Part shown: positions 1 through 11,116 of the stretch, piece after piece
Numbering within the stretch: the first letter of the stretch is position 1
Layout of the letters: every line of letters begins with the position of its first letter
NCBI GenBank assembly: GCA_021201135.1
Contig: JAJQGT010000006.1
Location: forward strand, 124,001 to 188,000
DNA length: 64,000 nucleotides
Source: Oscillospiraceae bacterium
GTDB taxonomy: Bacteria > Bacillota > Clostridia > Oscillospirales > Ruminococcaceae
Direction: 5' to 3'
Notes under the pieces: generated by a model
The model's input: only the letters and a program-made list of their open reading frames with translations
What the model was told of the DNA's origin: nothing
Database searches by the model: none
Translations under genes and position numbers: made by a program

Positions 1-702
1 TATTCCAAGCCTGTGAGAATGGCGGCAGGAGCCTTTATCGGCGGCTTTTCGGCTCTTATAATCATAATCCCTGAGAGTATAGGCGTCATATTTCTGAAAA
101 TACTTTCTTTTGCGATAATAATAGCTGTGACTTTTCTGCAAAGGGGTATGGGCAAGCAGAGATCCCTGATTCTTTGTGCCGAGTTTTTCGGAGTGAATAT
201 AATCTTCGGCGGAACTGTTTATCTTCTTCAATCTTTGATTGGGACGGATATTATCTACATAAACAACGCTTCTTTCTATTTCGATATATCGCTCGGAACG
301 CTCATATTCTTCACGGCTATGATTTACGTCCTGACAGTGATTATCTCCGGCTTTCTTTCAAGAAAAGCCGACAAGAATCATGCTTATCGGGTGATGTTTG
401 ACTATGGTGGAAGCAGTTACAGCTTTGACGGCGTTGCTGATACCGGAAACACCGTTACCGATTTATTCAGCGGAAAACCGGTTATAATTTGTACAGGTTC
501 TGGTGATAAACCGAATTTGGAACGCTTCTCGGCTGTGCCGTACTCAACAATAGATGGCGAAGGGCTTCTTTATGCCTTTTCTCCCGATGAATTATACATA
601 GAAGATGAAACAGGAAAAAAGAAAAACGTAAATGCTCTTCTTGCGTTTACGGAAAGCGGAGAACGAAGAGCGGTATTTAATCCCGCAATTTTACATGAAT
701 GA
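1..702 (+). CDS. spoIIGA: SpoIIGA, sigma-E processing peptidase (5' end cut by window edge)
   Basis: This is the membrane aspartic protease that removes the pro-peptide from pro-sigma-E in the mother cell. The reading frame is open to base 1 (codons tat tcc aag cct precede the first GTG at 13), so the N-terminus lies outside the window. Hydrophobic membrane segments fill roughly the first 110 visible residues. They are followed by a soluble domain with the motif ADTGN, the expected catalytic Asp-Thr-Gly of this family. The stop is 13 nt before the sigE start, the standard spoIIG operon order. The family is recognised from the DTG motif, the topology and the sigE neighbour. Confidence 0.93.
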
Positions 703-715
703 AAGGACTTTAGCA

Positions 716-1429
716 ATGGAAAAGCCGAAACTTTTGAGAGAAATCAGGATAAGAATTCTTAAGCTTTTAGGAATAGCTTCGCCAGTCGACTATATCAATG
801 GCTCTGACACTCTTCCGCCACCATTAAAAGGTGAGGAAGAAAAGCGAGTTTTTGAAATGCTCACAACTAATCCCAAAAAGGCAAGAGAGATTCTGATTAC
901 TCATAATCTTCGGCTTGTCGTCTACATATCGAAAAAGTTTGAGTCCACAGGAATAGGGGTTGAAGACTTAATCTCAATCGGTACGATAGGACTTATAAAA
1001 GCAGTCAATACTTTCAATCCGGAAAAGAACATCAAGCTTGCAACCTACGCCTCAAGGTGCATCGAAAACGAGATACTGATGTACCTGAGGAAAACCAACC
1101 AACAGAAGAATGAAGTTTCTATAGATGAACCCCTCAATATCGACTGGGACGGAAACGAGCTTCTTCTTTCGGATGTAATCGGTACCGAGCCCGACGAGGT
1201 TTACCAGAAGCTTGAAGGCGAGACAGAAGTACAGCTTCTCATAAAAGCCGTTGATTCTCTTAACGGCAGGGAAAAGCTCATAATGCAGATGCGCTTTGGA
1301 TTGAACGGCGGCAGAGAGATGACCCAGAAGGAAGTTGCGGATGTTGTGGGAATATCTCAGTCATATATTTCGAGACTCGAAAAGAGAATTTTAAAAGAAC
1401 TGAAAAAAGAGTTGGAGGCTATATGCTGA
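716..1429 (+). CDS. sigE: RNA polymerase sigma-E (pro-sigma-E)
   Basis: Early mother-cell sigma factor of sporulation, 237 aa, close to the 239 aa of the Bacillus protein. I chose ATG 716 because AAAGGA lies just upstream and the protein then starts with the expected basic amphipathic pro-sequence ([19 protein letters not shown]). The processing region follows around [13 protein letters not shown]. Region 2 ([39 protein letters not shown]) and region 4.2 with its helix-turn-helix ([16 protein letters not shown]) are intact. It is co-transcribed with spoIIGA, which cleaves it. Transcription may read on into sigG, where a hairpin appears to block translation. Confidence 0.97.
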
Positions 1430-1463: not shown

Positions 1464-1493
1464 GAATAGTAAATATACACTCCGGCAATAATG
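1464..1493 (+). promoter_or_regulatory. Putative forespore (sigma-F/sigma-G type) promoter of sigG
   Basis: GAATA at 1464-1468, a 15-nt spacer, and GGCAATAATG at 1484-1493. The -10 fits the Bacillus sigma-F/G pattern GGnnAnAnTR, and the -35 resembles GHATA. Transcription would start near 1500, so the transcript would lack the left arm of the hairpin at 1474-1495. The match is by eye and the start point is inferred. Confidence 0.6.
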
Positions 1494-1542
1494 ATATAAG
1501 ATTTTCCGTTTGGAAAGAATCAATCATTATCCGGAGTGTATA
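1474..1542 (+). promoter_or_regulatory. Hairpin sequestering the sigG ribosome-binding site
   Basis: Bases 1474-1485 pair perfectly with 1531-1542 (12 bp). After a 2-nt bulge (1486-1487), 1488-1495 pair with 1523-1530 (8 bp). The loop is about 27 nt. The right arm contains the CCGGAG Shine-Dalgarno sequence of sigG (1531-1536). No T-run follows, so this is not a terminator. Only RNA that starts upstream of 1474, such as sigE read-through, can form the full stem. Confidence 0.8.
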
Positions 1543-1547
1543 CTTAT

Positions 1548-2318
1548 ATGCAATACTGTAAGGTTGAGATAAGCGGCGTCAACACAAGAGACTTGAAAGT
1601 CCTGAGTGAGGACAAAAAGATGGAGCTATTGGTAAAAGTAAAACAGGGTGACAAAAAGGCGAGGGACGAGCTGATTCAAGGAAACCTTCGCCTTGTTTTA
1701 AGCGTGATTCAGAAGTTTATGTCGAGAGGAACGCCTCCTGACGATTTATTTCAGGTCGGCGTTGTAGGTCTTATCAAGGCGATAGACAACTTCAACATAA
1801 ATCTCGATGTGAAGTTTTCAACATACGCCGTACCGATGATAACAGGCGAGCTGAGAAGATATCTTCGAGACGACAATGCGATAAGAGTGTCACGTTCAAC
1901 GAGGGATTTGGCATATCGGGCAATGCAGGCTAAAGAAAGGCTGACTGCATCAAGCGATACCGAGCCAACTGCAAGAGATATAGCAAAAGAACTGGATGTG
2001 AAAGAATCGGAGGTCGTCTTTGCTCTCGAATCAATCAGCGACCCGGTTTCGATATATGAGCCGGTATATTCGAGTACAGGTGATACTCTTTATGTCCTCG
2101 ATCAACTCGGCGACAGTTCCAGCGATGAGGGTTGGATAGATGAGCTATTGCTCCGTGAAGCGATAAAAATGCTCTCGGACAGAGAGAAAAATATACTGTA
2201 CCTTAGATTTTATCAGGGCAAGACACAGGTCGAGGTAGCAAACGAAATCGGCATTTCTCAGGCGCAGGTATCAAGAGTCGAAAAAAGTGCGTTGTCAAGG
2301 ATAAAATCCAAAGTATAG
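1548..2318 (+). CDS. sigG: RNA polymerase sigma-G
   Basis: Late forespore sigma factor, 256 aa from ATG 1548. It follows the Bacillus SigG pattern: short N-terminus KVEISGVNT, NLRLVLSVIQKF, DDLFQVGVVGLIKAID, KFSTYAVPMITGE and the region 4 helix-turn-helix EIGISQAQVSRVEK. A GTG at 1536 is also in frame but overlaps the Shine-Dalgarno GGAG (1533-1536), so ATG 1548, 11 nt downstream of it, is preferred. It follows sigE as in most spore formers. Expression is probably set by the sigma-F-like promoter at 1464-1493 and by the hairpin that hides its start on longer transcripts. Confidence 0.96.
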   Translation: MQYCKVEISGVNTRDLKVLSEDKKMELLVKVKQGDKKARDELIQGNLRLVLSVIQKFMSRGTPPDDLFQVGVVGLIKAIDNFNINLDVKFSTYAVPMITGELRRYLRDDNAIRVSRSTRDLAYRAMQAKERLTASSDTEPTARDIAKELDVKESEVVFALESISDPVSIYEPVYSSTGDTLYVLDQLGDSSSDEGWIDELLLREAIKMLSDREKNILYLRFYQGKTQVEVANEIGISQAQVSRVEKSALSRIKSKV

Positions 2319-10012: not shown

Positions 10013-10041
10013 TTGACCTTCGGCTCGGAATGTGCTATTAT
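10013..10041 (+). promoter_or_regulatory. Sigma-A promoter of galE
   Basis: TTGACC at 10013-10018, a 17-nt spacer ending in TGTGC (extended -10), TATTAT at 10036-10041. A GGAGG precedes the galE ATG about 46 nt further on. Confidence 0.8.
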
Positions 10042-10087
10042 AGCAGTAGTGCAAAAACACAATTACGAGTATGGAGGTCAATTTTCT

Positions 10088-11116
10088 ATGTCGATTTTGG
10101 TTTCTGGTGGAGCCGGATATATAGGCTCGCACACCGTTCTGACCCTTTTGGAGAAGGGTTATGACGTTGTTGTATTTGATAATCTCGCAAATTCGAGCGA
10201 GGAATCCCTGAAAAGAGTAGAAAAGATAACCGGTAAGTCAGTAAAATTCTATAAGGCGGATATGCTTGATCGTACAGCGATGGATAAAATCCTGGATGAG
10301 AATCCCGATATCACGGCTCTTATTCACTTTGCCGGACTCAAGGCGGTAGGAGAGTCTGTTGAAAAGCCGCTTGAATACTATAAGAACAATATCGGCGGAA
10401 CCCTTACACTTCTTGAGGCGATGAAGGCTCACGGTGTCAAAAATATAATTTTCAGCTCTTCCGCAACGGTTTACGGCGTTCCCGAAAGAGTTCCGATAAC
10501 TGAGGATTGCCCGAAGGGAACCTGCACGAATCCATACGGTTGGACAAAGAGCATGATCGAGCAGATTCTTACCGATGTTCATACGGCCGACAGCGAGTGG
10601 AATGTGGTTTTGCTCAGATATTTCAATCCCATAGGAGCGCATCCTTCGGGACTGATAGGTGAGGACCCGCAGGGAATTCCTAATAATCTTGTTCCATATA
10701 TTGCACAGGTTGCTGTCGGAAGAAGAGAACACCTCAATGTTTGGGGCAACGACTATAAGACTCATGACGGAACCGGCGTTCGCGATTATATCCATGTTTG
10801 CGACTTGGCAGACGGTCACGTCAGAGCTCTTGAAAAGATAGATGAGTCCAAGAACGGCGGAGTTTACATATACAATCTCGGAACAGGAATCGGATATTCT
10901 GTTCTTGACGTCGTCAAGGCTTATGAGAAGGCATGCGGCAAGGAAATTCCTTATGTCATCGGTCCGAGACGCGCCGGAGACCTTGACGAAAATTACTCAG
11001 ACCCGACACTTGCCGAGAAGGAGCTTCACTGGAAGGCAGTTTACGGAATCGACGACATGTGCAGAGATTCCTGGAACTGGCAGAAGAATAACCCATACGG
11101 TTATAATGCCGGTTGA
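10088..11116 (+). CDS. galE: UDP-glucose 4-epimerase
   Basis: Interconverts UDP-glucose and UDP-galactose for the Leloir pathway and cell-surface polysaccharide synthesis; 342 aa, a normal GalE length. The N-terminal NAD-binding motif is GGAGYIGSH (G7, G10, G13). The catalytic Y150-xxx-K154 (YGWTK) and the Ser/Thr of SSSATVYG are present. ATG 10088 is preceded by GGAGG; the longer frame from 10013 would run through the promoter. It is a single-gene unit downstream of the GH30 genes. A functional link to them is possible but not shown. Confidence 0.95.

Follow-up and report, generated by a model that had tools for sequence, protein, structure and literature searches.

A stem joining the sigG promoter to the sigG Shine-Dalgarno sequence in an Oscillospiraceae bacterium and its relatives: a probable lock against translation of read-through mRNA

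In the window, which is the whole stretch of 64,000 nucleotides analysed from an Oscillospiraceae bacterium, an inverted repeat lies between sigE and sigG and covers both part of the putative sigG promoter and the sigG Shine-Dalgarno (SD) sequence. This raises the question of whether the repeat keeps sigma-G from being translated from mRNA that continues from sigE. The gene order is a probable spoIIGA, sigE and sigG (Table 1). sigE is on the same strand as sigG, with an intervening gap of 118 nt. The spoIIGA match to TIGR02854 is weak and under the cut-off of 209.6 bits. The SigG of the window scores 372.5 bits against TIGR02850, under the cut-off of 457, which was reached by none of the 147 genomes searched in the order of the window. 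The named records matching the sigG alignment (80 listed) are mostly from Oscillospiraceae, Ruminococcus and unclassified Clostridia. Among the matches listed, where nearer ones are possibly omitted, the highest identity to sigG is 69%. A spoIIGA-sigE-sigG transcript is reported for C. acetobutylicum and B. subtilis in PMC3789822, and by Northern analysis for C. acetobutylicum in PMC2530871.

Table 1. Features of the spoIIGA-sigE-sigG region of the window.
Feature	Position	Strand	Basis and remarks
Probable spoIIGA, sigma-E processing protease	13..702	+	TIGR02854, 63.7 bits, and place ahead of sigE; 5' end beyond the window
sigE, mother-cell sigma factor, supposed source of read-through	716..1429	+	NF006158, 366 bits (cut-off 339)
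-35-like element GAATA	1464..1468	+	Sequence; GNATA in the loci of the genus
Left arm, 12 bp + CA bulge + 8 bp	1474..1495	+	Sequence and folds; anti-SD CTCC in the promoter spacer; overlaps the -10-like element
Left arm, outer segment TATACACTCCGG	1474-1485	+	Read from sequence
CA bulge, 2 nt	1486-1487	+	Read from sequence
Left arm, inner segment ATAATGAT	1488-1495	+	Read from sequence
-10-like element GGCAATAATG, 15 nt past the -35-like element	1484..1493	+	Sequence; retained in relatives
Loop, with predicted local start at ~1500 and a small inner hairpin	1496..1522	+	Folds
Right arm, covering the sigG SD	1523..1542	+	Sequence and folds
Right arm, inner segment ATCATTAT	1523-1530	+	Read from sequence
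Right arm, outer segment CCGGAGTGTATA	1531-1542	+	Read from sequence
sigG SD GGAG, 11 nt ahead of the ATG	1533..1536	+	Sequence
sigG, forespore sigma factor, ATG start	1548..2318	+	NF006071, 383 bits (cut-off 372)

A sequence-only reading of this DNA had described a stem of 12 + 8 bp with a 2-nt bulge, with the sigG SD in its right arm, and a sigma-F/G-like promoter overlapped by its left arm and starting near 1500 in the loop. The stem, the place of the SD and the promoter motif are all as described, and the start is predicted. The promoter-like elements are of the sigma-F/G type, and the left arm occupies the spacer between them and the -10-like element itself. A distance of 7 nt from the last base of the -10-like element to the start, which we assume as a rule, places the start at 1500, inside the loop. 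With this predicted start, the RNA of the local promoter does not contain the left arm. No Rfam family matches within the window at the gathering score.

The predicted structure depends on the bases before 1500. The fold of 1440-1580 (141 nt) has z = -5.6, and none of 200 shuffles is equally stable. The fold of 1464-1580 has z = -4.4 (1/200 shuffles equally stable) vs z = -0.7 (47/200) for the local form, 1500-1580; the sequence-only reading had proposed a comparison of this kind, and the outcome is the expected one. Occlusion was then defined as the predicted energy needed to free the stretch from the SD to the start codon, in read-through RNA reaching 150 nt upstream or in local-promoter RNA cut at the predicted start. 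The opening for sigG costs 21.0 kcal/mol in the read-through RNA vs 7.0 in the local-promoter RNA, a computed difference that supports the proposal that the former hides the sigG start and the latter cannot. The SD alone opens at 0.9 kcal/mol in the local RNA. Among 303 SD-bearing starts (mean 6.2, sd 3.3), the occlusion at sigG ranks first, and so does its relief by truncation 48 nt ahead of the start codon (14.0 kcal/mol); these starts were called mechanically across 384 kb of the contig that carries the window (the window and 16 other stretches), and some are probably wrong, such as one seemingly inside a frame that we take to be dnaE-like. Exact 12-bp inverted repeats with a loop of up to 70 nt occur at 17 places in the 384 kb, one of them an artefact of an N-run.

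The best explanation of the stem is, with good probability, a lock on sigG against read-through. The stem, the difference in accessibility of the SD and start codon, the presence in relatives and the co-evolution of the arms are computed. From these we infer a mechanism, which includes read-through at this locus, use of the promoter by sigma-F and sigma-G, its start site and the consequence for translation. RNA polymerase continuing from the spoIIGA-sigE unit would make mRNA with both arms, in which the 20-bp stem would hide the sigG SD, and little sigma-G would be made. RNA polymerase with sigma-F, and later with sigma-G, would start at ~1500, beyond the 3' end of the left arm. In that mRNA the stem would be impossible, and sigG would be translated. 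The anti-SD arm, being promoter spacer plus -10, would be present in every upstream transcript and never in the local one, and the spacer may be the nearest such site that is free of sigma contacts. The promoter motif and the analogy with B. subtilis suggest that the promoter is used in the forespore and that the device may act as a cell-type lock. This model is thermodynamic and based on minimum energies; folding during transcription, ribosomes that finish sigE and RNA-binding proteins are outside it.

The genus of the window provided 30 loci from 31 genomes searched; G022 yielded no sigG locus. In all 30 loci, GNATA is followed after 14-15 nt by GGYAATAAT, and the promoter region is joined to the SD and start codon by 11-24 predicted pairs. 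The sequence-only reading had named loss of pairing in relatives as evidence against itself, and the pairing is kept throughout the genus. Two registers were observed. The subclade of the window and a few others carry the anti-SD within the promoter spacer. Most members of the sister clade use the -10 and the adjoining 3' bases, which pair with the SD and the nucleotides preceding the ATG. The read-through cost is at least 5 kcal/mol above the local cost in 28/30 loci, and in 24/30 at most one of 40 upstream shuffles per locus reaches the observed value. L009 is weak by the energy measure, and L012 is not locked by it (7.6 vs 8.7 kcal/mol), though 16 pairs are predicted there. The sigE-sigG gap of L012 is 228 nt, 108-145 nt longer than in the other loci of the genus, and its leader is 129 nt, compared with 20-49 nt. 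A strong hairpin without a U-run lies directly behind its sigE.

Pairing is present in 94.5% of cells in the nearest subclade, vs 25-43% when the partner is slid. Compensatory changes had been sought in the stem of the closest relatives, and no double change was observed among the 10 distinct nearest sequences. Their stem changes are one-sided only (to or from G-U), together with losses. Since two-sided changes are absent from this subclade, the evidence for co-evolution rests on the wider comparison.

In the wider comparison, the sigG promoter arms of other species (-60 to -1) were placed before each species' own leader. If the pairing were a by-product of promoter and SD sequence, the own arm should do no better than the foreign ones. 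A locus passes this arm test when its cognate arm beats at least 95% of the foreign promoter arms (5% level). The first set gave 40 passes in 104 loci (5.2 expected), and the window beats all 103 foreign arms. A larger set, obtained by looser dereplication and the fetching of 60 more loci (230 eligible before dereplication), gave 75 passes in 186 dereplicated loci (9.3 expected). Two later sets are also above chance: 10/42 in set 2, whose loci belong to the 186, and 11/34 in set 3, whose loci lie outside them. Promoter scores under 9 were excluded from the arm tests. In set 2, 5 of 60 loci were lost to start or promoter score and more as redundant, leaving 42; in set 3, 2 of 58 were lost likewise and 22 were redundant, leaving 34. 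An energy survey covered 154/170 loci, the other 16 having no found start or being too short, and one further batch covered 56/60. The sole controls for kinship were dereplication and one count by family.

The passes are 10/13 in the genus of the window, 14/24 in other loci of the order, 22/44 in the nearest named records (order unchecked) and 29/105 in the rest of the phylum. Thus, the arms co-evolve, and the trait is genuine but patchy beyond the genus. The word "conserved" in the sequence-only reading is too strong in view of this patchiness; that interpretation as a whole is partly supported and for the most part right. In the 75 passing loci, the arm is concentrated at -35 to -16, that is, in the promoter spacer, and is sparser at -15 to -1. 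Therefore, proximity to the SD alone is insufficient as an explanation. At least 80% of the arm lies within -36 to -1 in 59 of these loci. L063, whose SigG we take to be Bacillus-like, shows 14.0 vs 2.7 kcal/mol, which agrees with the hairpin published for B. subtilis.

A chance or neutral inverted repeat would agree with the lack of double compensatory changes in the nearest relatives. It is very improbable in view of the first rank of sigG for occlusion among 303 gene starts and the excess of cognate over foreign arms in three successive sets. The repeat might otherwise act as an operator in the DNA, bound by a dimer that regulates the sigG promoter, since it forms a near-perfect palindrome across that promoter; according to PMC3738446, SpoVT of B. 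subtilis inhibits transcription of sigG. However, the arm sequences vary by lineage and the arm spacing shifts, whereas the complementarity and the overlap with the SD persist. On this ground the operator reading is disfavoured, and we regard it as unlikely.

The strong stem behind sigE could also be an intrinsic terminator of the sigE unit, with the hiding of the SD as a by-product. There is no terminator-like site in 1300-1700, a second finder likewise shows none in the window, and the stem of the window is not followed by a U-run. A terminator at this stem was rejected because neither finder reports a site. Among the 75 lock loci, 6 have a terminator-like site between promoter and start codon, as this reading would predict, but 69 lack one, and no-lock loci show an equal rate (9/111). 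It is thus improbable that termination explains the stem.

The lock against read-through, which remains the preferred reading, can be compared between loci with and without an upstream sigE. For most named records, and for most of the order's loci beyond the genus, the search for a nearby sigE upstream of sigG found nothing; it used the SigE of the window only, and very divergent copies could be missed. Of 82 loci that have 1000 nt or more of available upstream sequence and no sigE in the nearest 700 nt, 33 pass the arm test. Because the signal is also present in such loci, the lock is not solely a guard against sigE read-through. The same lock may mainly target any stray upstream transcription, chiefly in vegetative cells, where self-activating sigma-G would be toxic, rather than sigE read-through. 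This is compatible with the best explanation, and we give it a somewhat less than even chance. Passes among sigE-less loci of the order (9/18) and of the named records (21/38) favour such a general guard, and some lock loci lie behind an rmuC-like gene or beside opposite-strand frames. The argument of Mearls 2018 (PMC5942855) that sigG controls mainly protect vegetative cells points the same way. In the rest of the phylum, only 3/26 sigE-less loci pass vs 25/78 sigE-adjacent ones, which favours a link of the lock to sigE, and in the window itself sigE is directly upstream on the same strand.

In five loci among the named records (L108, L116, L124, L127 and L136), sigG lies on the same strand behind a gene that we take from its motif to be rmuC-like, with no sigE near, and at most 1/40 shuffles reaches the lock signal in each. 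In some sigE-less loci, sigG adjoins open frames on the opposite strand.

The lock is related to the length of the sigE-sigG gap, being found in 39/70 loci with gaps of up to 150 nt and 10/53 with longer gaps; for set 3 alone, the counts are 6/13 and 4/10. In the first set, terminator-like sites were found in the gap of 1/20 sigE-adjacent lock loci vs 24/34 no-lock loci (Fisher 2e-6), and with looser dereplication in 2/30 vs 26/41. Counting the first locus of each of 51 families, the numbers are 2/16 vs 25/35 (p 1.6e-4); random picks give a median p of 8e-4 and a worst of 0.017. Set 2 shows 3/9 vs 14/20 (p 0.11), or 2/6 vs 4/7 (p 0.59) under stricter dereplication, and set 3 shows 5/10 vs 8/13 (p 0.69). 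Sets 2 and 3 together give 8/19 vs 22/33 (two-sided p 0.14, one-sided 0.076). The pooled counts are 10/49 vs 48/74 (p 1.3e-6), in a pool that includes the set that prompted the idea. The association is confounded because gap length tracks it: in gaps above 150 nt there is no difference (8/10 lock vs 37/43 no-lock), and in gaps of up to 150 nt the counts are 2/39 vs 11/31. Loci without sigE upstream show no difference in terminators (9/33 lock vs 19/50 no-lock). The replacement of lock and sigE terminator by each other is therefore strong as an exploratory result, with later sets in the same direction, and is not confirmed. Some distant genomes, L338, L339 and L343 among others, have both a lock and a terminator-like site behind sigE. 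L339 belongs to family f101, as does the Bacillus-like L063.

The kind of device is already known. For B. subtilis, a hairpin of 20+ bp was proposed in read-through sigG RNA and is impossible in PsigG RNA (Mearls 2018, PMC5942855); this is the inverted repeat of Bacillus spoIIIG to which the sequence-only reading had correctly referred. Mearls 2018 credits it to Masuda 1988 and Sun 1991 (PMC5942855). The B. subtilis locus and the window share sigE upstream, a forespore promoter (in the window, a motif of this type) in the gap, and a stem of ~20 bp that is proposed to hide the sigG ribosome-binding site (RBS) in read-through RNA only (PMC5942855). In the window, the left arm lies outside the predicted local RNA. 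The start codon is ATG in the window and GTG in B. subtilis sigG, and the promoter spacer is 15 nt in the window and shortened in B. subtilis, at 14 bp in 14/15 Bacilli (PMC5942855). Other registers occur in the sister species of the window, and in part of its order the lock is kept where sigG has left sigE. The small RBS hairpin studied by Mearls 2018 is distinct from the large one. It hides the same SD as the stem of the window, but it has 5 bp, forms in PsigG RNA and damps translation 2-4-fold (PMC5942855). Such an extra hairpin is not evident in the window, as judged from the low cost of opening the SD alone in local RNA.

In the leaders of T4 gene e and I-TevI, early read-through RNA likewise hides the RBS, and late-promoter RNA, which is missing the 5' portion of the structure, is translated (PMC3014915, PMC2988022). 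In the window, too, a promoter motif is nested in the left arm of a stem that hides the SD. The T4 leaders belong to phage genes under phage late transcription, and the likeness is one of mechanism, not of membership or common descent. The survey in Mearls 2018 covered the promoter spacing and the small hairpin of 15 Bacilli and 13 Clostridia, and the available text of that paper gives no survey of the large hairpin (PMC5942855). A literature search by title and abstract start found no such survey either, which is weak evidence of absence as subscription journals were mostly uncovered. What is new is the spread of the lock, the anti-SD in the promoter spacer, the co-evolution of the arms and the persistence where sigG no longer follows sigE.

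A similar design was observed at another gene of the window. At galE (UDP-glucose 4-epimerase; 10013-10090, + strand), the promoter is sigma-A-like; its -35 TTGACC and the next bases pair with the SD region GGAGGTCAA, and opening the SD and start codon costs 14.6 vs 7.4 kcal/mol. galE of this genome and its relatives also provided a second gene with which to compare sigG. Of 30 galE loci fetched, 4 had no usable start and 26 were analysed. At most 1/40 shuffles reaches the observed value in 6/26, namely the window and its five nearest relatives, and the design is absent in the 20 other loci analysed.

Across the phylum, we see an even chance that the sigG promoter spacer is selected as an anti-SD, with both arms rewritten together, that the lock outlasts separation from sigE in part of the order and protects against transcription of this toxic and self-activating sigma factor from upstream, and that lineages lacking the lock may use a sigE terminator. 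Sigma-G activates itself, and slight leaked translation could activate it at the wrong moment or in the wrong cell (Mearls 2018, PMC5942855). The device proposed for B. subtilis in 1988-1991 is now found in many lineages with co-evolving arms, and the otherwise free promoter spacer would serve as the key of the lock. In a C. difficile sigF mutant, sigma-G is at wild-type levels, according to PMC3738446. The lock provides a testable rule by which sigG leaders can be interpreted, for instance in cases of sigma-G being present without sigma-F.
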